DNA of 64,000 nucleotides from Rhodococcus sp. KBS0724 (GTDB lineage: Bacteria; Actinomycetota; Actinomycetes; Mycobacteriales; Mycobacteriaceae): NCBI RefSeq assembly GCF_005938745.2, contig NZ_VCBX02000001.1:2948001-3012000 (forward strand), in the 5' to 3' direction. Made by a program: the position numbers and the translations under genes. The stretch's first letter is position 1, and each line of letters begins with the position of its first letter. The notes beneath the pieces were generated by a model that searched no databases, was not told where the DNA came from, and was given only the letters and a program-made list of their open reading frames with translations. Shown one piece after another: positions 9,681 through 25,844 of the stretch.

Positions 9681-10613
9681 TCAGAGTTCGGGGACGATGT
9701 CGCCGATGACCTGAACAATCGCATGTTTCGCCCAGGCCGTGATCTGCTCGTTCATATCTCGGTAGTACGGCAACGCCACCAACGCGATCGACAGAGCCCA
9801 TGCCCGGCCCCGCTTCCATGTGTCCTCGTCCACGTCGGCGTGCGCCCGGAACACGCGCCGTGTGTTCGGTGTCAGCAGCGTCCATGCGACAAGGCAGTCG
9901 ATCGCAGGATCACCCAGGGATAGTCCGCCCCAATCGATCACGGCCGAGAGACGGCCGCCACGTACCAGGATGTTTCCCGGATGCAGATCCGAGTGCATCC
10001 ACACCGGCGGGCCTGCGTAGTCGATGACATCTCGCGTCTTCTCCCACACTGCCTCCGTCAACGCTGCGTCCACCAGTCCGTCGCACGCAGCAATGCTCGC
10101 TCTAGTCGCTCTAGTCGCTCTAGTCGCGCAGTCTCGTCGCGCAATCGACTCGGCCCGGTAGGAATGTAGCGGCCCCACCGGGCGCAATCCGAAGGTGTCG
10201 ATTCGACGTAGGCTGCACACGAAGTCGGCGAGTTGGATTGCGAGATGGTCATCAGCTATACCGGGCAACGGATTTCGCCCCGCAAACCACGGATACACCG
10301 ACCACCGCCACGGGTATCCGAAGGCCGCCTCACCCACACCCACCGGAAGTGGCACGGGGACAGGTAATTGCGGCGCGAGCCGCGGCACCAACGCTTGCTC
10401 CTTCGTGATTCCCTGCGCCGCAACCGGAGTGCGGGGCATCCGGATCACCAGTGACCTACCAAGCCGGATCATGACATTGTCAGTACCGATCGACTCGACC
10501 AGATGCAGCGGCAGATCGGCCCATTGCGGCATCTGACCCGCGAGCAGACGCGGGATCAGAGCGAGGTCGATGTCCGGTTCGTCTTTGTGAAGCTTGCGGA
10601 TGTGCATGGCCAC
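9681..10613 (-). CDS. Aminoglycoside phosphotransferase-family kinase (first of two)
   Basis: A 310-residue APH/choline-kinase-fold protein. The catalytic loop is WMHSDLHPGNILV (Asp as base, Asn for metal) and the DFG-equivalent is IDWGG; the N-terminal lobe has VIRMPRTP with the ATP lysine replaced by an Arg-rich strand. Family members phosphorylate hydroxyls of small molecules, including but not limited to antibiotics, and the substrate is unknown. An Arg-Ala-Thr repeat near residues 162-171 is encoded by three 9-bp DNA repeats. It converges with the phosphoribosyltransferase gene across 113 bp with no clear terminator. Confidence 0.85.
   Translation of the reverse strand: MAMHIRKLHKDEPDIDLALIPRLLAGQMPQWADLPLHLVESIGTDNVMIRLGRSLVIRMPRTPVAAQGITKEQALVPRLAPQLPVPVPLPVGVGEAAFGYPWRWSVYPWFAGRNPLPGIADDHLAIQLADFVCSLRRIDTFGLRPVGPLHSYRAESIARRDCATRATRATRASIAACDGLVDAALTEAVWEKTRDVIDYAGPPVWMHSDLHPGNILVRGGRLSAVIDWGGLSLGDPAIDCLVAWTLLTPNTRRVFRAHADVDEDTWKRGRAWALSIALVALPYYRDMNEQITAWAKHAIVQVIGDIVPEL
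10101..10127. repeat. Three 9-bp tandem repeats inside kinase gene
   Basis: TCTAGTCGC occurs three times in a row with no mismatch, inside the APH-like gene. The unit length is a multiple of three, so gain or loss of copies keeps the frame and only changes the number of Ala-Thr-Arg units. Confidence 0.9.
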
Positions 10614-10744
10614 AAGGAAACCACTCCGAAAGGTCCAGCGTCGAAACCTTTTCCTCGAGTATCGGTATGCGGGTGCTGAAGCCGCCCGTTCCCACGAATC
10701 GGTTCCACGGAAATCGCGGATCTACTGCTCGATTGTGCGGGGCA

Positions 10745-11539
10745 TCAACGAATAGCGGCGATGATTGCCTCGGAGTTCTCACGAATGTAGATCTGATCTC
10801 GGGTGTAGATGTCGATGTGCTCAGCAGCTGTGCGGGTCGCGGTGCCTGGCTCCGCTGCCTCGATACGGGCGAGAATGGCTCGCTTCATCGCCCCCAAACG
10901 GTCGATCAAAATCTCGGGCAGCAGAGATGCGCGGGGGTCCGGGTAAAGTTCGAAAATTCTTTTCAGACGGTCGAATTGGTCGATATCAGCAGACCAGCCA
11001 CCGTCGGAGAAGTTATCCGGGCTACACAACGGCGCGAATCGGTACGCGAAATAGGCAAGATCATCGATGCGACGGCCTGGGCCGGCTTCGTCGAAGTCGA
11101 TTATCCCGATCGCACGCGTGCCACTGAATACGAAATTGTATGGCGCAGCGTCCCAGTGGCACACCGCTTCAGCCCTGAGGCCCTCTGGGAGGTGGTCAGC
11201 GTGTCCTTCAGGTAGCCGTAGTCCAACGGTGGCATCGTGGAGTTGACGAAGGATCGTCACTGCCGTTTCCATCGCCTCGCGACTGCGGACCTCCGGCGGT
11301 ATCGGGTAGTTCCCGGCCGTTCCTTCCAGGTAGGAGAGCTTTTCGCGTCCTTGGTCATCGATTCCCAGGAAGCGGGGGCTGTACTCGAACCCCGCCTGTT
11401 GCAGGTGGTCGAGCAAGGTGTGGACGGCGCGAGAGTGGGTGCCGGTCATCCTTCGGACCGAACTGCCCACCCGATGCACTACCGTGCGATTTCCGCCCAC
11501 GAGGACGACCTCCTCGGAGGAATCTTCTTCAGCACTCAC
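10745..11539 (-). CDS. APH-family phosphotransferase (second of two)
   Basis: A kinase-fold phosphotransferase of 264 residues from the GTG at 11539 (274 if the ATG at 11569 is used). The GTG is preferred because GGGGAG lies six bases upstream. The catalytic loop is CHWDAAPYNFVF and the metal-binding motif IIDFDEAG. It shares only the fold motifs with its neighbour at 9681, so it is not a recent duplicate. The DFDEAGPG-type loop is typical of APH-like proteins in actinobacteria with no proven substrate. Same strand as the neighbour with 131 bp between them. Confidence 0.83.
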   Translation of the reverse strand: MSAEEDSSEEVVLVGGNRTVVHRVGSSVRRMTGTHSRAVHTLLDHLQQAGFEYSPRFLGIDDQGREKLSYLEGTAGNYPIPPEVRSREAMETAVTILRQLHDATVGLRLPEGHADHLPEGLRAEAVCHWDAAPYNFVFSGTRAIGIIDFDEAGPGRRIDDLAYFAYRFAPLCSPDNFSDGGWSADIDQFDRLKRIFELYPDPRASLLPEILIDRLGAMKRAILARIEAAEPGTATRTAAEHIDIYTRDQIYIRENSEAIIAAIR

Positions 11540-11614
11540 AATGGTCTCCCCGTATAGCCGAGCATGCACTCTCGTGTCAGCGGAGTTGACGCTCGAATTC
11601 GTTACGTTTGACTA

Positions 11615-12310
11615 TCACGCATTACCTGCACGGCCGGCGTATCCGTCAAGCAGCGTCGTAGTGCGAGAAGCGAGTTCAGCTGTTGACCCAATCCATCCCA
11701 GGATCCGAATCGATGCGTCGGCAATGACGTCGGGAGATGTGGGGATTCCGGTTCCTTCGGTTTCAGCGTCTGACCTGGTGTTGATCACGGTCTCGACGAG
11801 ACGGAACGGTAGCTGCGCAGTGCGGAGATCGACGTCGCGGTCGGGATTGATCTGGACCAGCGCGTCTCGAGCGAATTCTGTGTACAGATTCATGAGTGTG
11901 CCGCGCTGGGCTCGGAACGGCTCGAATCGTTCGGTCCGCAGCTCCGGCAGCAGGTAGAGGGCACCAAGATTCCATCGGGACGCCGCGAGTTGCTGCGCGT
12001 CGAACCAGGCCAGGGCGTACATACGCACCGCGGCGGGTTCCGGACTCTCGCGCATTTCCTGAGCAAAAGCCAGGGGCGAGGTGACTGTCCCGACTAGAAG
12101 AGCCGTCAGTAGGTCGTCTTTGTTGGCGAAGTGGTGGTAGAGCGATGCCTGCCGGATCCCTACCGCATCGGCGATCATCCGAGTGGACGTGCTGGTGAAG
12201 CCGCCGGTGGTGAACAACTCGGCTGCCGCATCGAGAATTTCGTCGCGTGCCGTTGCGCCGGGACGCTTGCGTGTCGACAGCCGTGGGCGGCCGGCTCCGG
12301 TGGTGGTCAT
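11615..12310 (-). CDS. TetR-family regulator
   Basis: A 231-residue TetR protein. The N-terminal DNA-binding domain is clear: ARDEILDAAAELFTTGGF, then TSTRMIADAVGIRQASLYHHF with the YHHF end of the recognition helix, then NKDDLLTALL. The C-terminal ligand domain is not assigned. It is the last gene of an operon with the Fic protein and the CBS/nucleotidyltransferase, overlapping the Fic stop by four bases, so it may control the operon. Ligand unknown. Confidence 0.88.
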   Translation of the reverse strand: MTTTGAGRPRLSTRKRPGATARDEILDAAAELFTTGGFTSTSTRMIADAVGIRQASLYHHFANKDDLLTALLVGTVTSPLAFAQEMRESPEPAAVRMYALAWFDAQQLAASRWNLGALYLLPELRTERFEPFRAQRGTLMNLYTEFARDALVQINPDRDVDLRTAQLPFRLVETVINTRSDAETEGTGIPTSPDVIADASIRILGWIGSTAELASRTTTLLDGYAGRAGNA

Positions 12311-13125
12311 GACTCCATCCTTCCATCACTGCGGTCCACGAGCGCGCGCCGCAACAGGGGAATCAGCGGGCGCGGCGACGGAGCGCCGGTCCGGCGGAAG
12401 GGGGACGAATCACGAGACGCAGCAACCCATTCCGCAGCATCGATGCTCGACAGGTCGAGCAGGAATCCGGTCGAGCTGGTGAGTTGGTGGAGTAATAGGC
12501 TGCCGGTGCGGCCGTTTCCCTCGCGAAACGGATGCGCGTGGTTGTAGGTGACGTAGACAGTCGCCAGCGCGTAGGCCAGCCCGCCACGGTCGGCTCGGTG
12601 CCAATCGGTCGCCGCAACTGCGATTTCGACTTCACGCAAGTATCGGCTGATCGAACCGACCGGTGCGAAGCCGTCGCCGTTCTTGGTGATGTCGACGATG
12701 CGTTGCTGCCCCGCCCAGCCGAACACGTCACCGAACACCTGCCCGTGTAACCCGAAGATGTACTCGGCATCCACCTGCCTCGGCGTCGGCGCGGGTTGCA
12801 GATGGGCTTGGAGCAGGCGAGCTGCGGTCGCGGCATACTCGACGTCCCGCAGCTGAGTATGGTCCTGGAATCCGAAGTTGTTGCGCAGCACGGTGGTCCC
12901 GGTGACCAGGTACGGACGCGGTAAGGCGAGCCGTCGCCGGCGCGGGACTGCGCGCGCGGATGCGGCGCTGCGGTGACGTTCGATGTAGTCCTCGCAGGTG
13001 AGGGTGCCGACGGCCAGTGCGTCCAAATCGGTGAGGTCGTCGCCGCTGGGCTGCCATCCTTCGAGTCGCTCGGCCGCCACGGTCTGACGAACCGCGTGCC
13101 GCTGCGCGTCGGTCAGTTCGGTCAT
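12307..13125 (-). CDS. Fic-domain protein with N-terminal VbhA-like inhibitor
   Basis: A 272-residue Fic protein, predicted to transfer AMP (or a related nucleotide moiety) to a target. The Fic motif HPFREGNGRTGS spans residues 198-209; it keeps the catalytic His198, Glu202, Asn204 and Arg206, but the closing Arg of the consensus HxFx(D/E)GNGRxxR is Ser209. Residues 1-55 look like the VbhA antitoxin: AERLEG at 18-23 matches the inhibitory SxxxEG helix with the Ser replaced by Ala18 while Glu22 is kept, and a conserved acidic/hydrophobic tail follows. So toxin and inhibitor are one chain. The ATG at 13125 overlaps the upstream gene by four bases, and the 3' end overlaps TetR. Confidence 0.85.
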   Translation of the reverse strand: MTELTDAQRHAVRQTVAAERLEGWQPSGDDLTDLDALAVGTLTCEDYIERHRSAASARAVPRRRRLALPRPYLVTGTTVLRNNFGFQDHTQLRDVEYAATAARLLQAHLQPAPTPRQVDAEYIFGLHGQVFGDVFGWAGQQRIVDITKNGDGFAPVGSISRYLREVEIAVAATDWHRADRGGLAYALATVYVTYNHAHPFREGNGRTGSLLLHQLTSSTGFLLDLSSIDAAEWVAASRDSSPFRRTGAPSPRPLIPLLRRALVDRSDGRMES

Positions 13126-14516
13126 GCCGGTGGCCCCGTGTATGCAAGTTTTCGCTGCAGGCCTGCGATCTCACGGACGGCGCTCGCGAGCAGACTCCGG
13201 TACAGGGGGGTCAGCGAGTCCAGTGGCAGGACGTCGGTCGGGGCTTCGCCTCGTTCGATCTGCTCGCACTGGTGCCGCAACCGGATCTGTGCGAGCACGT
13301 CGAACGACTCGGCAAGCATCGTCGCGTCGTCGTCGGGGAGAATTCCCGAGGTCGCTGCCGCTCGCAGTCGCACTGTGGTCGACGGGTCCGCGCAGCCTGC
13401 CGCGAGCCCGGCCCACCGCGCGATATTCACGATCGGCATCACACCTTGTGCCTTGATGTCGACGGAATCCGTGCGGCGAGTAAGACGCTCGCGCAGTGAA
13501 TGCATCCGCGCCTTACCTTCGACGGCTTCCTTGAGCAGCAGCCGTAGTGCGTCGGGATGGAGTCGCTCGGAAACAACGGGGGACATGGCAAGGTGGTCGT
13601 CGCCGAGCGTGACGCGACTGTCCGCGAGCAGTGACACCATCACGACACCCTGATCGGCGTAAGGATCGGCGAGCCAGCCGTCCAGCCCGCGCAGCCAGTC
13701 GGATTCGGAACGCGCGAACCGCGGGCTGGACGCAACCGCTCCATTGGCATCAGAGGGGAGTCCGCAGCGCTGCAGTAGTTCGTGTACCCGACTTCCATAG
13801 GCGGCTTCGCGGGCTTGCCGTTCGGGACTGTGGTCGTCCGGCCAGATCAGCGCGCTGTCGACGTCGGAGCTGGGCATGGCCTCGCGGCGAGCGACGCTGC
13901 CGAGGGAGAGCCAGGTCGAACCGGGATGGCCGTCGGCGATGAGGCTAGCGGCCCGGGTGACGGCGGCGTCCATGAGTACCGACGCGATGGCGCTGACATC
14001 GATCGCCGCTACGCGTGCTCGCCACAGCCCCACCACAAGTTCCGGGATCCGTGCTGTCGCGGCCACCAGTTCGTCGGCGTCGGTTGCCTGAGAAATAGTG
14101 CTGCGCACCAGGAATCCACTCCGCGTTGCAGTGGCGAACAGGTCGGCGTCCTCGACCACACCGAGAACGTCGCCGCGTGAGGACAGTACCGGCAGGTGCC
14201 TCACGCCGCGTTCGAGCATGTCGAGCAGCACGTCGGCGCCGAGTCGGTCAGCGCTTGCCGTATGCACTGGAGTGGTCATCACTTCGGACACTGGGGTAGT
14301 GGTGCCGAGTCCGGCCGCAACAATCCGCCTGCGTAGGTCTCCGTCGGTGAAGATGCCCAGCGTGCCGCTGCCAAGGGGAATGAGTACGTAACGACGGCCG
14401 GCAGCGGTCATGGCGCGGGCAGCATCGGCGGCGGTTGTCTCCGGTTCGCAGGTAAGTGCGGGCCCACGCAACAACTCGCCCACCGGGAGCATCGATGGAT
14501 CGCGGACGACGTTCAT
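13122..14516 (-). CDS. CBS-pair nucleotidyltransferase (DUF294), paralogue 1
   Basis: A 464-residue protein with two CBS domains (about residues 12-140) fused to a DUF294-type nucleotidyltransferase. The fold signature is GSVARREAMPSSDVDS, i.e. GS followed by the DxD metal motif (Asp-Val-Asp), with the helical C-terminal DUF294_C part after residue 290. CBS pairs bind adenosine nucleotides, so it may sense energy state and modify a protein or RNA; no target is shown. It is first in an operon with the Fic protein and TetR. A close paralogue lies at 58859-60292. About 200 bp separate it from the divergent permease gene. Confidence 0.86.
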   Translation of the reverse strand: MNVVRDPSMLPVGELLRGPALTCEPETTAADAARAMTAAGRRYVLIPLGSGTLGIFTDGDLRRRIVAAGLGTTTPVSEVMTTPVHTASADRLGADVLLDMLERGVRHLPVLSSRGDVLGVVEDADLFATATRSGFLVRSTISQATDADELVAATARIPELVVGLWRARVAAIDVSAIASVLMDAAVTRAASLIADGHPGSTWLSLGSVARREAMPSSDVDSALIWPDDHSPERQAREAAYGSRVHELLQRCGLPSDANGAVASSPRFARSESDWLRGLDGWLADPYADQGVVMVSLLADSRVTLGDDHLAMSPVVSERLHPDALRLLLKEAVEGKARMHSLRERLTRRTDSVDIKAQGVMPIVNIARWAGLAAGCADPSTTVRLRAAATSGILPDDDATMLAESFDVLAQIRLRHQCEQIERGEAPTDVLPLDSLTPLYRSLLASAVREIAGLQRKLAYTGPPA

Positions 14517-14716
14517 GGCCCTTATCTAATGCTGTGCCGCCCCGCGGAGCATCACCGACTACCCATGTGAGGGTTCGGAAACGTTTCGTTAACCGATGTC
14601 ATCGACTCGCAACGCAATCGCTACACAGCGAAACATGAGAGACACCGGCCGGGAACGGGAGCGCAGAAAACTATCAACTGACAGGAATACCGCCCCCAGG
14701 CCTCCCAGGAGAATCA

Positions 14717-16240
14717 ATGACGATCGCGGCACCTAAGCCCAGCGACGACAACGACCTCGCCGAGTTCGGCTACGAGCAGCAACTGCACCGCTCGCTCGGC
14801 AAGTTCGCCTCGTTCGCGGCAGGCTTCTCGTTCGTCTCCATCCTGACCACGATCTTCCAGTTGTTCGGGCTCGGCTTCAGCTTCGCGGGACCGGCGTTCT
14901 TCTGGACGTGGCCGTGCGTGTTCCTCGGCCAGTTCATGGTGGCGCTGAGCTTTGCCGAACTTGCTGCGCGCTACCCGATCTCGGGTGCCATCTACCAGTG
15001 GTCACGGCGGATGGGCGGCGAGATCATCGGGTGGTTCGCCGGTTGGTTCATGATCATCGCGCAGATAGTCACCGCCTCCGCGGCGGCGATCGCCCTGCAG
15101 GTGGTGTTGCCAAACGTGTGGAGCGGATTCCAGATCGTCGGCGAGGACAGTTCCCTGACGTCGTCGAGTGGCGCGACCAACGCTGTACTGCTCGGCTCGG
15201 TGTTGCTGGTGCTCACGACAACGATCAACTGCGTTGGCGTGAACTGGATGTCGCGGATCAACAATATCGGTGTGACCTGCGAGATCATCGGCGTCATCGC
15301 GGTAATCGGGATGTTCTTCACCCACGCCCAACGTGGTCCGCAGGTGGTCTTCGATACCGGCGCCGCGGGCAGCGAGCCAGGCTACATCTGGGCCTGGATC
15401 GTCTCGGGATTGATGGCGGCATACGTCATGGTCGGCTTCGGCTCGGCGGGCGAGCTGGCCGAGGAGACCCGCAATCCGCGCCGCGTCGCGCCGCGCACCA
15501 TTCGACTGGCACTGTCGGTGTCCGCTCTCGGCGGTGGCCTCATGATCGTCGGCGCGCTGATGGCAGCGCCGAGCCTCACCGACGGCCGGCTCGCAAGCGA
15601 AGGCCTGCCGTACGTACTCGGCGCAATCCTGAGCTCCCCGTGGGGCACTCTCCTGCTGATCGACGTCGCTATCGCGGTCTTCGTGTGCACCCTCGCGATT
15701 CAGACTGCCGCATCCCGGCTGATGTTCTCCATGGCCCGCGACGGCCGCTTGCCGGCATCGAAGACCCTCTCGAAGGTCAACGCCCGCACCGGAACTCCGA
15801 TCGCGCCGTCTGTCCTGATCGGTATCGCCTGCATCCTGGTGCTCGCGGTGAACGTCGGAAACTCGGCAATCTTCACCACGCTGTCGAGCGTGTGCATCGT
15901 GCTGATCTATCTGGCGTACCTGATGGTTACCGTTCCGCTGCTGCGCCGCCGGTTGCAGGGCTGGCCGCACGGAGATGTCCAGTACGACTCCGAGGGCCGA
16001 AAGCTGTTCTCACTGGGGGCCTTCGGCATTCCGGTCAACATCGCGGCGGTGCTGTACGGAGCCGCAATGGTGATCAACCTGTCCTGGCCACGCGCCGAAA
16101 TCTTCAACCCTTCCGGTGACATGCCGATTCTGCAATGGGCTGCCCCGATCACCGTCGTTGCCGTCGTCCTGGTGGGCGCTCTCTGCTACCCGCGCGGCAA
16201 GACCGTTCCGAACCCCGTCACGATTGGAGCTACGAAGTGA
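14717..16240 (+). CDS. APC-family permease of the guanidine/urea operon
   Basis: A 507-residue amino-acid/polyamine/organocation permease with about twelve membrane segments. The N-terminus (EFGYEQQLHRSLGKFASFAAGFSF) is typical of GABA/choline-like APC carriers. It heads an operon with two DUF1989 proteins, a urea-carboxylase-like CT protein and allophanate hydrolase, so it probably imports the nitrogen compound (guanidine, urea or a related molecule). GGAG lies eight bases before the ATG. It overlaps the next gene by four bases. The 200-bp leader (14517-14716) contains no gene; a riboswitch there was considered but is not clear. Confidence 0.88.
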   Translation: MTIAAPKPSDDNDLAEFGYEQQLHRSLGKFASFAAGFSFVSILTTIFQLFGLGFSFAGPAFFWTWPCVFLGQFMVALSFAELAARYPISGAIYQWSRRMGGEIIGWFAGWFMIIAQIVTASAAAIALQVVLPNVWSGFQIVGEDSSLTSSSGATNAVLLGSVLLVLTTTINCVGVNWMSRINNIGVTCEIIGVIAVIGMFFTHAQRGPQVVFDTGAAGSEPGYIWAWIVSGLMAAYVMVGFGSAGELAEETRNPRRVAPRTIRLALSVSALGGGLMIVGALMAAPSLTDGRLASEGLPYVLGAILSSPWGTLLLIDVAIAVFVCTLAIQTAASRLMFSMARDGRLPASKTLSKVNARTGTPIAPSVLIGIACILVLAVNVGNSAIFTTLSSVCIVLIYLAYLMVTVPLLRRRLQGWPHGDVQYDSEGRKLFSLGAFGIPVNIAAVLYGAAMVINLSWPRAEIFNPSGDMPILQWAAPITVVAVVLVGALCYPRGKTVPNPVTIGATK

Positions 16241-17142
16241 CCACGACCGACACTGCCATAGACATCACAGCAGCCACCGACATCACAGCAGCCACTGACA
16301 CCACAGCCGCCGCCCGCGAGCACGCCCGCTCGCAGGCCGGCGCGATCACCGACTCGATGCCAGTCCTTCCCGCCTCCGAATGGCCCACGCCTCCGGTCGG
16401 CATCACCGCGGACCGGCTGACCTGGGCGGAGACGGTGCCCGGCGGCCGATACACCTCGAAGGTGCTGGCCCGCGGCACGCGGATCCGACTGCGCGACATC
16501 GCCGGCAGTGCCTGCGCGAATGTGCTGCTGTACCGGGCGGACGCTCCCCACGAGCGGCTCAACATTGCCGACACCGTCAAGGTGCCGTGGCAGGCGTACC
16601 TGCGGGTGGGCCATCCACTGCTCTCCGATCAGGGACGGATACTGGCGACTGTTGTCGCCGACACCTCCGGTCACCACGACGCGTTTTGCGGAACTACGTC
16701 ATTGGCCACGAACACAGCCAAGTACGGAGAGGGATCCGTACATTCGGGAGCACCCGCCGGGCGGGAGTTGTTGACTCTGGCCGCGGCCAAGCACGGCCTG
16801 ACCGCCCGCGACCTGCCGCCGGTGCTGACACTGTTCCACGGCGTACGAGTCGAGCCGAACGGCGCACTGACCAGCACCGGAAACGCAGGCGCCGGAACGG
16901 AGTTGGAGCTACTGATCCATCTGCCGGTCATCGTGCTGATTGCAAATACCGCCCACCCGCTGGACCCGGACACCACGTTCGGCACCACGTCCCTCGAAGT
17001 AGTGGCGTGGGAAGCGCCCGAGGACCTCGACGCTCTGCCCGGCAACGACCCTGAGTACCTCCGTGCAGTCCTCAACACCGAGGACGCCTGGAACGCCGCC
17101 AAGCCAGCACATGAAGCACATTTCGGAAGGGACGCCAAATGA
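16237..17142 (+). CDS. DUF1989 urea-amidolyase-associated protein (CgdB/UAAP1-like)
   Basis: A 301-residue DUF1989 protein. GRYTSKVLARGTRIRLRDI, then ANVLLYRADAPHERLN, GHHDAFCGTTS, and the strand DLPPVLTLFHGVR are family features. Work in Pseudomonas identified such paired proteins as carboxyguanidine deiminase subunits (CgdA/CgdB), acting between a guanidine carboxylase and allophanate hydrolase; which subunit this is cannot be told. The GTG at 16237 overlaps the permease stop. The N-terminus carries a three-copy DITAAT-like repeat of 18 bp. The next gene overlaps by four bases. Confidence 0.84.
   Translation: MTTTDTAIDITAATDITAATDTTAAAREHARSQAGAITDSMPVLPASEWPTPPVGITADRLTWAETVPGGRYTSKVLARGTRIRLRDIAGSACANVLLYRADAPHERLNIADTVKVPWQAYLRVGHPLLSDQGRILATVVADTSGHHDAFCGTTSLATNTAKYGEGSVHSGAPAGRELLTLAAAKHGLTARDLPPVLTLFHGVRVEPNGALTSTGNAGAGTELELLIHLPVIVLIANTAHPLDPDTTFGTTSLEVVAWEAPEDLDALPGNDPEYLRAVLNTEDAWNAAKPAHEAHFGRDAK
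16261..16314. repeat. Three 18-bp tandem repeats at start of DUF1989 gene
   Basis: Two near-identical 18-bp units (differing at the last base) and one decayed unit encode DITAAT, DITAAT and DTTAAA. They extend a flexible N-terminus of the DUF1989 protein. Confidence 0.85.
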
Positions 17143-17792
17143 CCACCGCTGTAGAGACTCCCGCTCTCGTCCCCGGAGCCGTGATCCTCGATGAGACTGT
17201 CGGCGCCCGCGGACCCTGGTCTGCGATCGTCCGAGCCGGCGACGTCCTGACCATCGTCGACCTGTACGGCAACCAGGCCGTCGACTCCCTCTTCTATGCA
17301 GCCGACGATCACGGCGTTCGGTACTCGGCTGCCGCAACCGTTGCAGCGCAGCGCAATCTGTTTCTCACCACGGGATCGGTGCTTCGTGCCGACGATGGAA
17401 CTGCACTGATGACGCTTGTCGGTGACGAGGTCGGCAACCACGACACCGTCGGAGGCGCGTGCTCGCAGGAGTCGAACACCTTGCGCTACGGCCACCACAC
17501 CAAGCATCAGCACGCGTGTGTCGAGAACTTTCTGATCGAGGGCGCCAAGTGGGGACTGGGCAAACGTGACTTGGTCTCCAACATCAACTTCTTCATGAAC
17601 GTTCCGGTCGACGCGGATGGAACACTCGGCATCGTCGACGGACTCTCCGCACCGGGTAAGAGACTGGCTTTGCGCGCGGAGATCGACACACTGGTGCTCG
17701 TGTCGAACTGCCCCCAGATCAACAACCCCTGCAACGGCTTCGACCCCACAGCGGTGCGGATGATCGTGACCCGGCCGGAGGGACAGCGATGA
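17139..17792 (+). CDS. DUF1989 urea-amidolyase-associated protein (CgdA/UAAP2-like)
   Basis: A 217-residue DUF1989 protein paired with the preceding one. The hallmark is a metal-site-like block: [20 protein letters not shown] with conserved His, Cys and Glu, followed by HTKHQHAC and the [10 protein letters not shown] strand. Family members form a heteromer with the other DUF1989 protein; in guanidine pathways the pair removes ammonia from carboxyguanidine to give allophanate. The ATG at 17139 overlaps the upstream stop and the 3' end overlaps the carboxyltransferase gene. Confidence 0.87.
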
Positions 17793-19801
17793 CCGAGATC
17801 ACCGTTCAGCGTCCCGGCATGCTGAGCACCGTTCAGGACTGGCCGGGCCGCGTCGGTTACTGGCAGATCGGTGTACCCCCGTCAGGCCCGATGGACGACC
17901 TGTCCTTCCGACTTGGCAACGAGGCACTCGGCAACGAACCGGGAGCAGCTGGACTCGAGTGCACGATGGCCGGCCCCGCGCTGCGATTCGCCGAGGCCAC
18001 CGTTGTCTGCGTCACCGGCGCACCGGCCACCGTCCGAGTGAACGGACTGCAGGTCCGGGCCTGGGCGCCGGTCCACGTTCCGGCCGGCGGCGTCCTCGAC
18101 GTCGGGGCGACAACCGGTCCGGGACTGCGGATTTACGTGCTGGTACGCGGAGGAATCGACGTGCCCGACTACCTGGGCAGCGGTGCCACCTTCACACTCG
18201 GCAAGTTCGGCGGTCACGAAGGCCGGACGCTACGCGAGGGCGACGTATTGAGCTGCGGGGCAGGTCTGTGCAACCCCGATGCCGCCCAACCGGTTCCGAT
18301 GGAACACGTCCCGGTGATCGGTGGCCGCTGGGAGATCGCCGTTACCGAGGGGCCACACGGCGCACCGGAGTTCTTCACCCGCAACGACATCGACACGTTG
18401 TACGCCACCGACTACGAAGTGCACTTCAACTCGGACCGCACCGGCGTCCGCCTGATCGGGCCGCAGCCGGACTGGGCGCGCAACGACGGCGGCGAAGCGG
18501 GTCTGCACCCCTCCAACATTCACGACAATGCCTATTCGGTTGGCGCGCTGGACTTCACCGGTGACACCCCGATTCTGCTCGGGCCCGACGGACCGAGCCT
18601 GGGTGGATTTGTCTGCCCGGTTACCGTCGTATCCGCAGAAAGGTGGAAGCTCGGGCAGTTGAGCCCCGGCGATACCGTGCGATTCGTACCGATCCGCGCC
18701 GATCGCGCCGCGTCGAAACGTCAACTGGGCCTGAGCCGCCGCGCGAGCCTGCCGGCCGTATTCAGCGGCGGCGGAGACGGGGACGACGGAGTGATCGCCC
18801 GCCGCGACGGCAAGACCGCAGTGACGTATCGCCGCTCCGGTGACGACAATGTTCTTGTCGAATACGGGGACATGACTCTCGACCTCGCACTTCGGGCGCG
18901 GGCGCACGCACTGCACCAGCGACTCGAGGCGGAGAAGCCGGCGGGGCTACTCGATCTCACTCCCGGCATCCGGTCGCTGCAGGTGCGCGTCGACCCTGAC
19001 GTACTGCCGGTGTCGAAGTTGATGGGCTTGCTCGCCGAGGCCGAGGATCAGATCCCGGATTCGTCCGAACTTGTGGTGCCCAGCCGATCGGTCCGGATGC
19101 CTCTGTCCTGGGACGACCCGTCCACTCGCGAGGCAATCAAGCGGTACATGCACGGTGTTCGCGCCGACGCGCCGTGGTGCCCGTGGAACATCGAATTCAT
19201 TCGGCGGATGAACGGGCTGGACTCGGTTGCCGACGTCTTCGACACGGTATTCGATGCCGAGTACCTCGTGCTCGGGCTTGGCGACGTCTATCTCGGCGCT
19301 CCGGTGGCCACCCCACTGGATCCGCGTCACCGTCTGGTCACTACCAAGTACAACCCCGCGCGCACCTGGACGCCGGAGAATGCCGTCGGGATCGGCGGTG
19401 CCTACCTGTGCATCTACGGCATGGAAGGGCCAGGCGGCTACCAGTTCGTCGGCCGCACAACCCAGGTGTGGAACCACCGGTATCCGGAGAAGTCCGGGCC
19501 GTTCGAGGACGGCACACCCTGGTTGCTGCGCTTCTTCGACCGGATCTCGTGGTACCCCGTCGAACCGGACGAACTGCTTGAACTGCGCGCCGAGACGGCT
19601 GCGGGTGGGCCCGGCGGCGTGCACATCACGGATGGCAGTTTCTCTCTCGCCGAACACGAGCAATTCCTCACCGCCAATGCGGATTCCATTGCGGCATTCC
19701 GCGCCACCCAAGCCGTAGCGTTCGGCGCCGAGCGGGACGCGTGGTCTGCTGCCGGTGAATTTGCCCGCACCACAACAACAGTCAAGGAGGTGGCCGCGTG
19801 A
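17789..19801 (+). CDS. Urea/guanidine carboxylase carboxyltransferase domain only
   Basis: A 670-residue protein that corresponds to the CT part of urea (or guanidine) carboxylase. The first half is an AHS2/KipA-like unit ([19 protein letters not shown]), the second an AHS1/KipI-like unit with the UC-type stretch [17 protein letters not shown] and the later [13 protein letters not shown] full urea carboxylase has an N-terminal biotin carboxylase of about 450 residues and a C-terminal biotin carrier; both are absent here. No EAMKM-type biotinylation site exists in the chain. The upstream DUF1989 gene overlaps the ATG and the downstream gene overlaps its stop, so neither end has been lost by frameshift. 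The missing modules must come from another locus, or the protein has a different reaction. Confidence 0.85.
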
Positions 19802-21486
19802 GCGCACGGATTACAGCTACGGCGCGGGTCGCGGCAGCGTATCGGGCGATTGAAACCGCTGACAGGCCGGAGATCTGGATACACCTACGCCCCGAAGCCG
19901 ACGTGATGGCCGAGGCCGCACTCGTTGACGCGTCCACTGCTGACCTACCGCTGCGAGGTGTGGTTCTCGCGGTAAAGGACAACGTCGACGTGGCCGGCGT
20001 GCCGACCACTGCTGGGTGTCCCGAGTTCGGGTACACACCCGCAGTCGACGCGGCGGCGGTTGCGGCGCTACGGGCGGCGGGCGCGGTCGTGCTGGGCAAG
20101 ACGAACCTCGACCAGTTCGCGACCGGGTTGGTCGGCACTCGCAGCCCGCACGGCGCGGTGCGGGATTCGCGTCGGCCCGAGTACATCTCGGGTGGCTCGA
20201 GTTCGGGGTCAGCGGTTGCCGTCGCTCTCGGGCTGGTCGACATCGCAATCGGCACCGACACCGCAGGGTCCGGCCGTGTTCCGGCTGGTCTGCAGGGCAT
20301 CGTCGGCGTCAAGCCGACGGTCGGAGTCGTCTCGACCGAGGGAGTGGTTCCAGCATGTAGTTCTTACGACTGCGTGACCATCTTTGCTGCGGATCTGGCC
20401 GGCGCCGAGTCCGCGATGGCCGTGATGGCATCAGGCGCACCGGACCGCCAGTGGCCGAGCGACGTCCGGTTGGCAGCGCCGCCGCGGCCACGAGTGGCAG
20501 TTCCAGCTTTGTTGCCCGGACTGGACGAGCAGTGGGCGGCGGCGTTCGGCGCAGCTGTCGAACGGTTGCGTTCCGCGGGTGCCGAGGTAGTCGAGATTGA
20601 CCTGACGCTGTTCCTCGATGCCGCAAAGCTTCTGTACGACGGTGCGCTCGTCGCCGAAAGATATGCGGCGGTAGGTGAATTCGTCGACGACCATCCGGAT
20701 GCTGTGGACCCAACGGTACGTTCGATCGTTGCGCCCGCCGGAGCCATTCCGGCGCATCGACTACTGGCGGATCGGGAGTTGTTGGCGCAGTTGCGGAACC
20801 GGGCGATGACGGAGCTCGACGGATGTGATGCCCTGATGGTGCCGACGGCGCCGGAACATCCGACGATCGCCGAGGTCGCTGCTGATCCGATCGGTGTGAA
20901 CTCCCGGATGGGGACGTACACCAACTTCTGCAATCTCTTCGACCTTTCAGCCATCGCCGTTCCTGCCGGTACTGCCGGCGATGCGCAGTTCGGGGTGACG
21001 GTGCTGGCGCGTGCGTTCGAGGACGGCGTCGCCGCCGACATCGCGGCAATGGTGACCGGTGACGAAGCAACAGGATGGACGTCGGAACCGGCGGACACGG
21101 TCGAACTGTCGGTCTTCGGCGCTCACCTGCGCGGTCAGCCGCTCGAGCATCAGCTGACTGGGCTCGGCGCCCGGTGGCTCGGCCCGGTAGTAACCGCTCC
21201 GCGTTACCGGTTGAGTGCGCTGGACACAACGCCGCCCAAACCGGGATTGGTCCGGGTGGCAGATGGCGGCGTGGCGATCGTGGGGGAGCGCTGGCAACTC
21301 ACTCCCGCTGCTCTCGGCACGTTCCTCGCTGCGCTACCGACGCCGATGATGCTCGGTTCGGTCGAATTCGACGACGGCAGTTGGGGAACCGGATTCGGTT
21401 GCGACCAGGAGGCAGCGTCCACCGGCAAGGACATCAGCGAGTACGGCGGCTGGAAGGCTGCGCTGGACGCCGGGGCGGTGGGCTGA
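19798..21486 (+). CDS. atzF: Allophanate hydrolase
   Basis: A 562-residue allophanate hydrolase (allophanate to 2 NH3 and 2 CO2). The amidase-signature core has the catalytic Lys in [12 protein letters not shown], the cis-Ser in [12 protein letters not shown] and the nucleophilic Ser in [11 protein letters not shown]. The C-terminal AH_C domain is complete and ends with [13 protein letters not shown]. It is the last gene of the operon and should finish the pathway begun by the carboxyltransferase and DUF1989 proteins. The GTG at 19798 overlaps the upstream stop by four bases. The symbol atzF is used for the enzyme class, not to imply triazine breakdown. Confidence 0.92.
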
Positions 21487-21513
21487 CTTTCGAGTACTGG
21501 TCCCGGATTTCGC

Positions 21514-21942
21514 TCAGCTTTGGTCGTGATCGAACGTCACGCCGCGGCCGGTGATTTCGGTTGCCGTGATTTCGACAACGTTGTATTTGGGCGTCGGAAT
21601 CCAGGACCGCAATCCCAATTCGTCGATCTTGGCGGTTTCGGTGAACGACGTAATCACCCGCGCGGTTCCGCGCACTACAACACTCCATCCTTGTTCTGGG
21701 CCAACGTGATCGGCTTCGAACAGAACGCGGTCGTCGATGGTCAGTTCGACGAGTTTGGTGCCCTCGGCGGTGCGAAAGTAGATGTGGTTGTCGTCGACCA
21801 CATAGTTGACCGGGAAAATGTCCACGCGGCCGGAAGCTCCGACAACAATCCGGCCCAATGAGGCTTGGCTCAGCAGTTTCCAGCTGTCTTCAGCTGCAAG
21901 GACAACGACGGGTGAATTCGAGGAGAGATCGTTGGCGGTCAT
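21514..21942 (-). CDS. PPOX/flavin-binding pyridoxamine oxidase-like protein
   Basis: A 142-residue split-barrel protein of the pyridoxamine 5'-phosphate oxidase-like group. Pattern features are LLSQASLGRIVV, PVNYVVDDNHIYFRTAEGTKL and the C-terminal WSVVVRGTARVI. Such small proteins bind FMN or F420 and reduce varied substrates; the cofactor here is not decided. It converges with the allophanate hydrolase gene, 27 bp apart. Confidence 0.8.
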   Translation of the reverse strand: MTANDLSSNSPVVVLAAEDSWKLLSQASLGRIVVGASGRVDIFPVNYVVDDNHIYFRTAEGTKLVELTIDDRVLFEADHVGPEQGWSVVVRGTARVITSFTETAKIDELGLRSWIPTPKYNVVEITATEITGRGVTFDHDQS

Positions 21943-21999
21943 GTCTCATTTTCTCATGTGAGAGGGGGCAAATCGTGCGAGTTGGACGAAGATCACTAG

Positions 22000-23298
22000 T
22001 CAGCGAGTCGGTGTCGGCGAAGCGGGTACCGCAGCGGGATCACCGCCGGGTACGGCACTCGCGCCGTAGAAGGTGGGAATGATGCCCTTGGCCAGTACCA
22101 ACGCCGACCCCTCGCCCGTTGGTACCGTCGCCAGGTTTGTCGCGATCACCATGGTGAGGTCGGTGCTCGGATCGTGTGCCATGAATGTCATGTATCCGGG
22201 AATTTGGCCGTCGTGGCCGATCAGTGCAGGTCCGAAGCGGGCGATGCCGAGACCGTAGCCGGCAGCGGAGGGATTGCTCGGGTCGGTTGGTTGGATGCTG
22301 TCGAGGCGAATCTTCTGCATGTCGTCGTTCAGCAGCCCGCCGCCGACAAGGGCTTTGACGTAGGTGGCCAGCTCTCCGACGGTCGAGATTGCGCCGCCCG
22401 CTGTCCAGGTCCAGGACGGGTTGGCGTCGGTCTCGTTGTTCGGCTTCAAGGTGCCGGCCAGCGCTGCGCTCAGTTCGGGTTCGGGGAGTGCAAAGGTGTC
22501 GATCGTGGAGACATTGGTGCCGAAGGAGTATCCCTGCGGATGGGGGTCGGGGATCGAGGAATCGTCTGCTGCCGGCAACGACGTGTGTGTCAGACCCAGG
22601 GGCTCGTAGATGCGCTCCTGGAACGCTTGTGCTGCAGACATATCGGTGAGTTTTTCGATGAGCAGGCCGAGTAGCACGATGTTGGTATTGCTGTACTCGA
22701 ACTTCTCGCCGGGAGCAAAATCGACGGGGTGGGAGAATGCGATAGCCAGCAATTCCTCCGGTGTCCACGCCTTCTGCGGGTCATTGTCGAGCGTCGCGTT
22801 GAATTGTGGGTCGAAAGAGTAGCTGTACAACCCGCTGTGCATGTCCGACAGCTGCGCAATGGTGATCGTGTCGCCGTTCGGCACCCCGTCGATGTACTTG
22901 CCGATGGGATCGTCCAGGCTGAGTTTTCCTTCCTGCACCAACTGAAGAATGACCGTCGACGTCATTGTCTTGGTGTTGCTTCCGACGCGGAAGTAGTCGT
23001 CCAGCGACATCGGTTTGTCCTCGCCGATGACCTGGGTGCCGAATGTCGCGGTCCAGTCGCCTTGTGTCGGCGACGAGATCAGCACTACCGCTCCGGGAAT
23101 GACGTTGTCTTTCATCAGTTTCTCGATGGCCGGCCGCAAGGTTGCCGCGTACGCCGGTTCGGCGTCATTGTTTGTCGAGGTGATCTGGCTCTGCGAAACG
23201 TCGGAGGAATCCGTCACCTCTGACGAGGTTCCGCACCCTGACAGGACGACGAGGCTGACCGTCAACGCAACGGCTGCCGTTGTGGTGTGAGGACGCAT
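22000..23298 (-). CDS. Serine beta-lactamase/DD-peptidase-like lipoprotein
   Basis: A 432-residue exported lipoprotein. The signal peptide ends in VVLSGC (Cys22 is the lipidated residue) after a hydrophobic run. The beta-lactamase fold motifs are SNTK (Ser107-Lys110), YSN (Tyr202-Asn204) and IGHDGQIPGY for the third motif. This pattern belongs to class C-like/esterase-type D-alanyl-D-alanine carboxypeptidases; many act as cell-wall hydrolases or esterases rather than antibiotic-resistance enzymes. It stands alone upstream of tesB. Confidence 0.87.
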   Translation of the reverse strand: MRPHTTTAAVALTVSLVVLSGCGTSSEVTDSSDVSQSQITSTNNDAEPAYAATLRPAIEKLMKDNVIPGAVVLISSPTQGDWTATFGTQVIGEDKPMSLDDYFRVGSNTKTMTSTVILQLVQEGKLSLDDPIGKYIDGVPNGDTITIAQLSDMHSGLYSYSFDPQFNATLDNDPQKAWTPEELLAIAFSHPVDFAPGEKFEYSNTNIVLLGLLIEKLTDMSAAQAFQERIYEPLGLTHTSLPAADDSSIPDPHPQGYSFGTNVSTIDTFALPEPELSAALAGTLKPNNETDANPSWTWTAGGAISTVGELATYVKALVGGGLLNDDMQKIRLDSIQPTDPSNPSAAGYGLGIARFGPALIGHDGQIPGYMTFMAHDPSTDLTMVIATNLATVPTGEGSALVLAKGIIPTFYGASAVPGGDPAAVPASPTPTR

Positions 23299-23473
23299 GG
23301 ATTCTCCCGGTCTGCGATCGTGAATTCACCTGCACTTCGAATCGTAAAGAACTGGCGTGTCCGTTTTAGGTGTTTCGCGTGTCTGGGCTGGTTGAATTCG
23401 CTGAATGTATCCACGATCAGGCATTGTGTGACTGTCGGTGAGGATGCGGCGGACGCCGAGAACGGGAGTAGCG

Positions 23474-24295
23474 ATGGCGACGATCGAAGAGATTCTGGAA
23501 CTGGAACGCCTCGAACGGGACATTTTCCGAGGGATAATCGCGGAGACCACGCTGCCCCGAACATTCGGTGGACAGGTGGCAGGTCAGGCGCTTGTCTCGG
23601 CCGTGCGTACCGTCGATCCGGAATTCTCGGTTCATTCGCTGCACGGATACTTCCTTCGGCCGGGAAACCCCAAGGAGCCCACCGTCTTCCTGGTCGACCG
23701 CGTGCGCGACGGCCGGTCCTTTGCTACGCGACGGGTGACGGGAATTCAGGACGGGCAGGCGATCTTCACGATGTCGGCGTCGTTCCATGTTCAAGACGAG
23801 GGCATCGAGCACCAAGACGAGATGCCGCCGGTGCCCGATCCGGAGACGCTCGAGCTGGCCACCGACTCCGACGACGGTGAGACCGCGTGGCTGGCGCGTG
23901 AGTGGGCGGATTGGGATCTGCGACTCGTCCCACACGCCGATATCAGTAAGCGTCCCGGTGCCGCGGCTCAGCAGCAAGTGTGGTTCCGCTCGCGGGAGGC
24001 GCTGCCGGACGACCCGGTCTTCCACGTCTGCACTCTTGCGTACATGAGCGACATGACCTTGCTCGGATCGTCTCGCCGCCCACACATGGACGTACCGATG
24101 CAGGCCGCGTCGCTCGATCACGCAATGTGGTTCCTGCGCCCGTTCCGGGCGGACGAGTGGTTGTTGTACGACCAGACGTCGCCGTCGGCCGGTTTCGGTC
24201 GCGCGCTGACACAGGGACGGATCTTCGACCGGAGCGGAAACATGGTTGCCGCGGTCGTCCAGGAAGGCCTGACGCGTCACCTGCGTACTCAGTGA
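23474..24295 (+). CDS. tesB: Acyl-CoA thioesterase II, copy 1
   Basis: A 273-residue TesB-type thioesterase (double hot-dog), which hydrolyses acyl-CoA to free acid and CoA. The repeats [28 protein letters not shown] and, in the second half, [18 protein letters not shown] and [12 protein letters not shown] are typical. It starts with [14 protein letters not shown] at ATG 23474; upstream in-frame starts exist but lack such sequence. A close paralogue lies at 24990 (same motifs, about two-thirds identical by eye). Its 3' end overlaps a minus-strand gene by seven bases. Confidence 0.88.
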   Translation: MATIEEILELERLERDIFRGIIAETTLPRTFGGQVAGQALVSAVRTVDPEFSVHSLHGYFLRPGNPKEPTVFLVDRVRDGRSFATRRVTGIQDGQAIFTMSASFHVQDEGIEHQDEMPPVPDPETLELATDSDDGETAWLAREWADWDLRLVPHADISKRPGAAAQQQVWFRSREALPDDPVFHVCTLAYMSDMTLLGSSRRPHMDVPMQAASLDHAMWFLRPFRADEWLLYDQTSPSAGFGRALTQGRIFDRSGNMVAAVVQEGLTRHLRTQ

Positions 24296-24900
24296 GTGCG
24301 CACAGCGGGCCGAGCCGGGTGGTCGTAACGCACGTCCAGGTCGATCCGGTCGGTTACACCGCACTGATGTTCGAGTAGTGCATCGACGGTCCACAGGTCG
24401 GTTGGCGGTGTGTGCCGCCGTAGTGCCGCCTCGGACATGTGCAACCGGACGGTGACGTCGAAGTCGAGACCGCGCCCCAGCAGCATCGGTCCGGCGACGA
24501 CGATCACCGTCCGATCGTGAACGGGCCGACGGGAGGATCGTGCCGACCGGTCGGCTACTTCGTCCCACAGCTGGGGGAGCCACGTGCGACGCGTTCGCGC
24601 GCCCGTGACAACTTCACGGTCCAGAGCGTCGTAGTCGAACCACATCGTTCGATAGCTCAGCGGATCTTCGTGCCCGAACTCGAGTCGCAACGACGCCGGT
24701 CGCACGTAGTCGTGAAGAGAGACAACAGCACTCGGGCGTTGTCGTGACTCTGCGGCAACCCCGATCAGCTGCGCGAGTTCGACCGGTCTGGCGCAATCAG
24801 CGCCGTCCAGCGCCACGACCGCAACCGTCGGGTGTGATTCGCACAGTGATACAACCTGTTCGGCCAGGGCCTGCGGGGTGGAGGGAATGAAGACGTTCAC
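24289..24900 (-). CDS. Uridine-kinase-like protein without a Walker A lysine
   Basis: A 203-residue protein of an actinobacterial family usually labelled uridine kinase. The expected P-loop position reads ALDGADCARPVEL and lacks GK(S/T), so ATP binding by the usual route is not supported. The later blocks (YVRPASLRLEFGHEDPLSY and GPMLLGRGLDFDVTVRLHMSE) are the same as in that family. It is inverted between two tesB copies; its 3' end overlaps the first by seven bases. Function unknown. Confidence 0.68.
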   Translation of the reverse strand: MNVFIPSTPQALAEQVVSLCESHPTVAVVALDGADCARPVELAQLIGVAAESRQRPSAVVSLHDYVRPASLRLEFGHEDPLSYRTMWFDYDALDREVVTGARTRRTWLPQLWDEVADRSARSSRRPVHDRTVIVVAGPMLLGRGLDFDVTVRLHMSEAALRRHTPPTDLWTVDALLEHQCGVTDRIDLDVRYDHPARPAVRTH

Positions 24901-24989
24901 GCCACCATGGTGCCGTGCGGCGGCGGCGAACCGATAATGTGAACCCGTTGCCCGCCGGCGCTGTCGGCTTTTACTCTGCCGGAGGACTC

Positions 24990-25844
24990 ATGATTGGTAT
25001 CGAGGAGATCCTCGAGCTCGAAACGTTGGAGAAGGACATCTTCAGGGGGGCCGTTCACCCCACTGTTATGCAGCGCACCTTCGGTGGACAGGTGGCCGGC
25101 CAGTCTCTGGTCTCCGCCGTCAGCACCGTAGACGAGCGATTCCACGTGCATTCGTTGCACGGATATTTTTTGCGGCCGGGTAATCCCAAGATTCCGACGG
25201 TGTATCTCGTCGACCGGATCCGCGACGGGCGCTCGTTCTGCACACGCCGGGTGAACGCCGTCCAGGACGGGAAGACGATCTTCTCGATGTCGGCGTCGTT
25301 CCACGTCGAGGATCAAGGCATCGAGCATCAGGACCGGATGCCGAAAGTCCCGATGCCGGAGGAACTGCCGGACCCGTTGACCAATCCGGATTTCGCCGGA
25401 ACGCCGCTACACGAGGAGTGGCGGAACTGGGATCTGCGAATCGTGCCCGCAGACGTTGCCACATCGGCGCCGGATATGCCTGCGCAGCAGCGGGTTTGGA
25501 TCCGTTATCGCAACACCTTGCCGGATCGCCCACTTCTGCATATCTGTACGTTGGCCTATCTGAGTGACATGACGCTGCTCAACACATCCAACGTGCCGCA
25601 CAAGGACGTGAAGACGCAGAATGCCTCACTCGATCATGCGATGTGGTTCCTGCGTCCGTTCCGGGCCGACGAATGGTTGATGTACGACCAGACATCGCCG
25701 TCGGCAGGGTTCGGGCGAGCCCTGACGCAGGGGCGCATTTACGATCGAAGCGGCAATATGGTGGCAGCAGTAGTTCAAGAAGGCTTGGCGCGGATCGAAC
25801 GCGAGCCGGTGGACCGTGAAGACAAGACAGGAACGCACGCATGA
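24990..25844 (+). CDS. tesB: Acyl-CoA thioesterase II, copy 2
   Basis: A 284-residue TesB-family thioesterase, paralogue of the gene at 23474. It keeps [29 protein letters not shown] and [18 protein letters not shown], and begins [20 protein letters not shown] ends four bases before the ATG at 24990. The 3' end overlaps pdxT by four bases (ATGA), so the two are coupled. In Mycobacterium tuberculosis the same pair stands between pdxS and pdxT, so this copy is likely the conserved one and the copy at 23474 the additional one. Confidence 0.9.

Follow-up and report, generated by a model that had tools for sequence, protein, structure and literature searches.

A probable guanidine carboxylase reduced to its carboxyltransferase: a conserved, lineage-specific form in Rhodococcus and its relatives

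The stretch of DNA analysed here (the window) covers 64,000 nucleotides of the 7.25-Mb genome of Rhodococcus sp. KBS0724 (G000:C1:2948001-3012000), and the element in question is an operon at positions 14717-21486 whose carboxylase is represented by its carboxyltransferase (CT) alone. Five genes follow one another in the order permease, UAAP1, UAAP2, CT and AtzF:

14717-16240, plus strand: APC-type permease; TIGR03428 ('permease, urea carboxylase system'), 909 bits against a cut-off of 740
16237-17142, plus strand: UAAP1, a DUF1989 protein (TIGR03425), one subunit of a presumed carboxyguanidine deiminase; GTG start
17139-17792, plus strand: UAAP2, a DUF1989 protein (TIGR03424), second subunit of the presumed deiminase
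17789-19801, plus strand: standalone CT of 670 aa, with PF02626 at 27-301 and PF02682 at 346-564
19798-21486, plus strand: allophanate hydrolase AtzF (TIGR02713), with a C-terminal AH_C domain

All five proteins pass curated NCBIfam cut-offs, the CT only that of a generic domain model (TIGR00724, 267 versus 230 bits). An earlier note made from the letters of this DNA had listed the permease, both DUF1989 proteins and the allophanate hydrolase, and the curated profiles find all of them within the span that it gave. The gene set by which a carboxyguanidine deiminase pathway is recognised, two DUF1989 subunits and an allophanate hydrolase in an operon, is thus present at curated cut-offs. Adjacent genes are coupled by four-base overlaps, GTGA or ATGA: the ATG start of the CT overlaps the UAAP2 stop (ATGA), and the GTG start of AtzF overlaps the CT stop (GTGA). 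For UAAP1 the GTG at 16237, over the permease stop, is the more likely start, the one in the open reading frame list (16135) being too early.

The CT protein consists of CT_A_B (PF02626) and CT_C_D (PF02682) and has no further Pfam match; the Pfam and NCBIfam profiles detected no biotin carboxylase (BC) domain in it, nor does it contain a biotin carboxyl carrier protein (BCCP) domain or a biotinyl-lysine motif. Against the urea carboxylase model TIGR02712 it scores 980.2 bits, below the cut-off of 1303.85, and matches profile positions 448-1118 of 1201, the segment that lies between BC and BCCP in the full enzyme. The solved structures closest to it in sequence are Kluyveromyces lactis urea carboxylase (3va7) and urea amidolyase (5i8i) (E 8e-166 and 2e-165), and the nearest named relative is from Rhodococcus globerulus (98%). 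Whole-genome searches placed BC (PF02785) at 8 sites, one of them weak and below cut-off, and the carrier domain (PF00364) at 11, none of either inside the window. The earlier note's description of a 670-residue carboxylase with only the CT halves, and with neither BC nor carrier in the gene or the window, is therefore accurate.

Distribution and origin of the standalone form

The reduced architecture is not peculiar to this strain: it recurs at 118 other loci, defined as a CT frame without a BC match above 100 bits and without a BCCP motif. The motif is present at 0/118 standalone loci versus 42/42 full-length loci. These loci come from two overlapping sources. First, 101 genomes from the family of Rhodococcus, Nocardia and the mycobacteria yielded 80 fetched urea-carboxylase-like places, 53 standalone and 27 full-length (the row L116 among them is partial); the fetch left out G039:C5, G058:C12 and G089:C15, three places at 58-59% that look full-length, as well as fragmented matches in G032, G043 and G096:C13. 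Second, 80 named loci, assigned to families by genus name, comprise 65 standalone forms (in Rhodococcus, Rhodococcoides, Prescottella, Nocardia, Mycolicibacterium, Mycobacterium and Skermania) and 15 full-length ones, all from Micrococcaceae. The same strains occur in both sources, so the number of rows cannot be read as a number of independent species; thinning at a 97% identity limit leaves 94 standalone rows.

The gene neighbourhood travels with the reduced enzyme. Among the 118 standalone loci, some of which are cut by contig ends, UAAP1 and UAAP2 occur together at 116, an AmtR-like gene at 104, the permease at 100 and AtzF at 68. The full-length enzyme is set in the same company (permease, UAAP1, UAAP2, AtzF and AmtR-like gene) at 13 of the 15 Micrococcaceae loci; the exceptions are L248, a cut locus without the AmtR-like gene, and L230, only 3.7 kb long. 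That the window's gene is the product of an assembly error, a frameshift or pseudogene decay is a reading with practically no probability left: it is refuted by the conservation of the architecture at 118 other loci, and the clean overlaps at both ends of the gene, from which the earlier note had already drawn this conclusion, also speak against it.

A class-wide draw of 394 genomes (E <= 1e-150) shows how narrowly the form is distributed. Outside the family 31 of its genomes had a match, and the locus was retrieved from every one. Because the CT frame includes a BC domain in 30 of them (L309 among these is truncated at a contig end), the standalone form is, in this sample, nearly confined to one family. 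The same draw added five family members, four standalone (L311-L314) and one full-length (L298). The single outside case without BC, L310 (G180:C100, 958-7685), is a diverged standalone operon with permease, two DUF1989 proteins, CT and AtzF, whose substrate may differ, given a Met at the position that distinguishes guanidine from urea enzymes.

In a tree of 136 rows the standalone CTs fall on one side of a single branch (94/94 rows, SH-aLRT 100), and the clade is nested among full-length guanidine-type enzymes. It holds when more rows from outside the family are included (57 thinned rows, SH-aLRT 99). Three 'Rhodococcus sp.' rows carry a mistaken Cyanobacteriota label in the trees, owing to an error in name assignment. 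L310, which comes from another family and a genome with a contamination estimate of 5%, lies outside the clade at the end of a very long branch in quick trees, but a topology that groups it with the remaining standalone CTs has a slightly better score and withstands the AU test (p-AU 0.575), so that one loss of BC and BCCP is enough. Most simply, then, a single loss occurred in the family of Rhodococcus, Nocardia and mycobacteria, although the L310 trees also leave room for two. Full-length guanidine-type enzymes persist in several genera of the family, including two genomes placed in the window's own genus (L107, L111). The CT of the window represents a genuine and conserved shortening of guanidine carboxylase, specific to a lineage.

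A different kind of separation was seen in another genome, where the cluster L142 (G100:C3 around 467869) encodes BCCP (82 aa), BC (450 aa), CT_C_D and CT_A_B as separate genes and is predicted to specify a four-part urea-carboxylase-like enzyme. The order there, BCCP-BC-CT_C_D-CT_A_B with a gene for each, demonstrates that a CT of this fold need not be encoded together with its biotin parts. Similar neighbouring CT_A_B and CT_C_D matches occur in G030:C18 and G070:C14; BC and BCCP were seen in G100 only.

Substrate and source of the activated carboxyl group

Asp at K. lactis position 1330 distinguishes guanidine carboxylase from the urea enzyme, and Asp at 1584 is required as well (PMC11410670). 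In the window's CT these positions are Asp255 and Asp499. Asp at 1330 was found in 119/119 standalone rows and, in an enlarged set, in 123/124, the exception being the Met of L310, and Asp at 1584 in 124/124. The 42 full-length rows divide at 1330 into 28 Asp and 14 Asn, and this division is mirrored in gene content: both DUF1989 genes accompany 26/28 Asp-type but 0/14 Asn-type loci (the misses are L093 and L230), and in a wider set 49/51 versus 0/22. Because of this residue pattern and the DUF1989 gene context, the standalone CT is of the guanidine type, and its substrate is probably guanidine. The earlier note had headed the operon with both guanidine and urea; the urea half of that heading is weak, since the residue pattern is the guanidine type and the two urease alpha genes of this genome give urea another route.

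The catalytic part of the protein has been well preserved. K. lactis and the 14 urea-type rows agree without exception at 201 alignment columns, and mean retention of these is 91.0% in standalone CTs versus 92.2% in guanidine-type full-length enzymes. Of 185 near-invariant columns, standalone CTs keep 163 at >=95%; by class, the kept columns are 49/52 of those common with PxpB/PxpC, 100/117 of those specific to urea and guanidine carboxylases and 14/16 of those without cover. A Lys1605 to Ala mutant has been used as lacking urea carboxylase activity (PMC5770610), and the equivalent residue, Lys520, is Lys in 124/124 standalone rows. Judged by its residues, the protein looks like a working carboxyltransferase of the kind that uses carboxybiotin.

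If so, the carboxybiotin would have to come from elsewhere in the genome. Seven BC genes lie over the PF02785 cut-off: two pyruvate carboxylases, AccA3 (605 aa), a long-chain carboxylase (1832 aa), BC-BCCP proteins of 697 and 777 aa beside acyl-CoA-type genes, and a 1073-aa BC-BCCP-CT fusion. Some of these names are our presumption, and the 777-aa protein (near 4708145 of G000:C1) is taken to be AccA2 from its gene order. In a BC tree of 60 rows (12 of 72 were removed, all urea/guanidine type) none of the seven is of the urea/guanidine-carboxylase type, all being acyl-CoA or pyruvate type, and 0/31 acyl-CoA/pyruvate BC rows (7 from this genome and 24 that form part of the listing for other genomes) fall within the urea/guanidine BC clade, as a relocated domain would. 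PF02682 gave five places genome-wide, of which the window copy alone is of urea-carboxylase type; the other four are short frames, and the three compared are all PxpB-like. A second urea or guanidine carboxylase in the genome, which in the earlier note's own terms would have spoken against a reduced enzyme serving this pathway, was looked for and rejected, as the PF02785 and PF02682 searches together with the BC tree revealed none.

A short free biotin/lipoyl-domain frame (113 codons) without BC was also seen at G000:C1:4300597-4300791 (minus strand); we presume that it may be like mycobacterial TB7.3. Nothing among the PF00364 places of two other genomes, G007 and G037, looks like it.

Our preferred explanation, which we regard as evenly poised between right and wrong, is that the 670-aa protein is the CT subunit of a guanidine carboxylase that has lost its BC and BCCP parts and now receives them in trans from an alpha subunit shared with acyl-CoA carboxylases. 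The substrate, the delivery in trans and the identity of the donor are what we infer. The alpha subunit (most likely AccA3, with AccA2 second) would carboxylate its own biotin with ATP and bicarbonate, and the CT would move the carboxyl group from carboxybiotin onto guanidine; the two DUF1989 proteins would then deiminate carboxyguanidine to allophanate, which AtzF would hydrolyse to ammonia and CO2. An alpha subunit with several partners has precedents: M. tuberculosis AccA3 feeds AccD4, AccD5 and AccD6 (PMC5407890), and in S. coelicolor one alpha subunit is common to ACC and PCC (PMC13118682). AccA3 was found in 53/54 standalone-CT genomes (protein search, E <= 1e-200), which keeps the AccA3-type donor proposed in the earlier note as the best candidate, with its role in donation an expectation.

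Several observations weigh against this explanation. The AccA-CT complex and its activity are predicted from gene presence and sequence alone, and since AccA3 and AccA2 are general genes, finding them in standalone-CT genomes is weak evidence. The folds of AccD and of the urea carboxylase CT are unrelated, and AccA3 would therefore serve a new type of partner. One of the 54 genomes, G007 (3,157,527 bp), has the operon and no AccA3 by protein search, PF02785 or PF00364; an AccA2-type BC-BCCP and a pyruvate carboxylase are the sole BC genes found in it. Fewer of the conserved columns are kept at >=95% in standalone CTs (162/201) than in 28 full-length rows (179/201), and thinning the standalone set to 28 rows gives 165/201 on average (range 158-171). 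Residues 216 and 563, described below, differ from those of nearly all full-length enzymes, and altered chemistry is possible. AtzF, searched for at the locus only, is present at just 68/118 standalone loci. G007 belongs to a mycolate-type genus, and its lack of AccA3 may be a real loss or an artefact of an assembly gap or of masking; its sister genome G037 is a Segniliparus, and among the best 120 AccA3 matches is one protein from a Segniliparus metagenome-assembled genome at 93%.

A variant of delivery in trans, whose probability overlaps with that of the preferred explanation and which we consider unlikely in itself, is that the donor is AccA2, or an alpha subunit that differs by species, rather than AccA3. 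AccA2-type genes are present in all 18 standalone-CT genomes examined, including G007 with its AccA2 type and pyruvate carboxylase only, but those 18 are a subset of the 54, and an AccD-like gene, presumably AccA2's own partner, adjoins the AccA2-type gene in 17/17 loci fetched, which tells against AccA2 as a donor under either form of the explanation. A dedicated donor was not found: no BC-BCCP gene lies beside the CT at the standalone loci. Two BC frames near standalone CTs were considered and rejected, that at L224 being a fragment of a long-chain carboxylase (by-eye match to the protein start) and that at L313 a pyruvate carboxylase.

The residues that set standalone CTs apart raise a second kind of explanation. 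By a rule requiring a residue in >=97% of one group and <=5% of the other, two of 670 columns separate the family's standalone CTs from full-length enzymes: Asp216 (124/124 standalone versus 1/73 full-length, the latter having 57 Ala, 14 Asn, 1 Gly and a lone Asp in L132) and His563 (122/124, with two Arg, versus 0/73). L310 carries both. As a yardstick, the same rule finds three columns separating urea-type from guanidine-type enzymes, one of them the specificity residue that defined the classes. The two residues may belong to a site where a foreign carrier docks, reflect a change in chemistry or simply have been inherited from a common ancestor. An AlphaFold2 model of the CT was poor (22 alignment rows; mean pLDDT 65, with residues 216-218 and 519-611 under 50).

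If the chemistry has shifted, the CT could be biotin-independent, activating bicarbonate with ATP itself and carboxylating guanidine directly; we hold this to be unlikely, though it is the most substantial competitor. PxpB and PxpC, relatives of the CT, act in ATP-dependent 5-oxoprolinase without biotin, and of the five PxpC-like proteins encoded in this genome three have Asp and two Asn at position 216. The near-perfect partition of Asp216 and His563, the lack of a dedicated BC-BCCP neighbour and the one operon-bearing assembly without detected AccA3 (G007) all fit such an enzyme. It is less easily reconciled with the retention of 100/117 columns specific to urea and guanidine carboxylases, Asp499 and Lys520 among them, positions that are Phe or Arg in the alignable PxpB rows of this genome. 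In a more specific version, a little more doubtful again, the CT would have gained Asp216 and His563 after the loss of BC and BCCP and would make carboxyguanidine biotin-free, alone or with the DUF1989 pair. Delivery in trans by AccA3 or another alpha subunit ranks as most likely over a biotin-independent reaction.

The earlier note had also allowed for another reaction altogether. The CT might remove or transfer a carboxyl group or assist the deiminase, with no carboxylation of guanidine or urea. The loss of two of three domains and the standalone-specific residues could be read in this way, but the catalytic residues of guanidine and urea carboxylases and the pathway genes have been kept, and without carboxylation the deiminase and AtzF would have no guanidine-derived substrate (for the pathway, PMC12186494). 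We consider this improbable. On the substrate side the guanidine signature, the DUF1989 pair and AtzF make a different reaction less likely; the source of activated CO2 may still be a different one.

The consequences depend on which explanation is right. Were AccA3 the donor, nitrogen scavenging would be driven by a subunit that also works in lipid synthesis, and a single biotin subunit would serve carboxyltransferases of two unrelated folds; without any donor, a biotin-dependent enzyme would have turned into a biotin-free carboxylase. In either case the database names 'urea carboxylase' and '5-oxoprolinase/urea amidolyase family' conceal the missing BC/BCCP half.

Regulation and neighbouring genes

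Three genes with overlapping frames run divergently from the operon (11615-14516, minus strand), and a palindrome precedes the permease:

11615-12310, minus strand: TetR-family regulator, AmtR-like; homologue in 104/118 standalone loci
12307-13125, minus strand: Fic-domain protein; homologue in 27/118 standalone loci
13122-14516, minus strand: CBS and DUF294 nucleotidyltransferase-like protein, divergent from the permease; homologue in 26/118 standalone loci
14671-14684, no strand assigned: palindrome CTATC-AACT-GACAG, 33-46 bases before the permease start

The regulator matched no NCBIfam AmtR model, and we presume from its neighbourhood that it is AmtR-like. The consensus CTRTC-N4-GACAG is found in 15/15 upstream regions (the window and 14 hand-picked Rhodococcus/Prescottella-group loci of the 118), and the palindrome is a probable operator of the TetR-type regulator. 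A consensus for the AmtR box of the Corynebacterium glutamicum type gave 3 matches versus 3.85 expected.

Studies of M. smegmatis provide a possible regulatory parallel. The msmeg_2184-2189 genes (permease, 'urea amidolyase', allophanate hydrolase) are induced by nitrogen starvation via GlnR (PMC4222082; for GlnR also PMC3662644; for the induction also PMC4617892), and deletion of amtR raised the signals of msmeg_2184, 2187 and 2189 (PMC4222082). The same source tabulates amtR with such genes in several Actinobacteria, its position in M. smegmatis being elsewhere, and its excerpt states that AmtR is not released by urea or amino acids, with guanidine unnamed there (PMC4222082). Operons of this layout, nitrogen-regulated in M. 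smegmatis under the name 'urea amidolyase', may act on guanidine, whichever explanation of the CT is right.

An Rfam search of window positions 10000-26000 found no guanidine riboswitch; its one match was a sub-threshold CRISPR-DR20 (E 0.094) at 18009-18084 (plus strand) within the CT gene, most likely by chance. Downstream of the operon, two adjacent similar frames (23438-24295 and 24915-25844, plus strand) look by eye like acyl-CoA thioesterase II paralogues.

Comparison with known carboxylases

In titles and abstract openings of mostly open-access literature we found no description of the standalone CT form, and priority is not claimed. Section 8 of PMC3199775 notes that bacteria and archaea can have a gene of its own for each half of the CT, and does not mention a fused standalone CT. 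The closest known system is the full-length guanidine carboxylase of Arthrobacter and Pseudarthrobacter operons, with which the window's CT shares 57-75% sequence identity, the Asp residues at 1330 and 1584, and the permease, UAAP1, UAAP2, AtzF and AmtR-like regulator. It differs from that BC-CT-BCCP enzyme in having neither BC nor BCCP and in carrying Asp216 and His563, which in full-length enzymes are mostly Ala and mostly Arg or Gly, respectively. Urea carboxylase (TIGR02712; K. lactis) is likewise similar in its CT sequence and has Lys1605 and Asp1584 in common with the window's protein (Lys520 = 1605), whereas the latter is without BC/BCCP, has Asp instead of Asn at 1330 and scores under the TIGR02712 cut-off.

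PxpB and PxpC of ATP-dependent 5-oxoprolinase are homologous in CT_C_D and CT_A_B and also have no BC or BCCP, but they are two separate proteins and the window's CT is one fused protein. Its identity to the copies in the same genome is 30-35% (PxpC-like) and 22-25% (PxpB-like); it falls well short of the PxpC model NF045499 (114.4 versus 500 bits) and of the PxpB model TIGR00370 (30.8 versus 145.55), and there is no PxpA-like gene among the five of the operon. Sharing of AccA with a CT of the urea-carboxylase type was not described in the literature consulted. With the actinobacterial acyl-CoA carboxylases (AccA3 with AccD4, AccD5 and AccD6) the proposed common logic would be that of one BC-BCCP subunit serving several CTs, the difference being that the AccD carboxyltransferases have an unrelated fold and act on acyl-CoA substrates.

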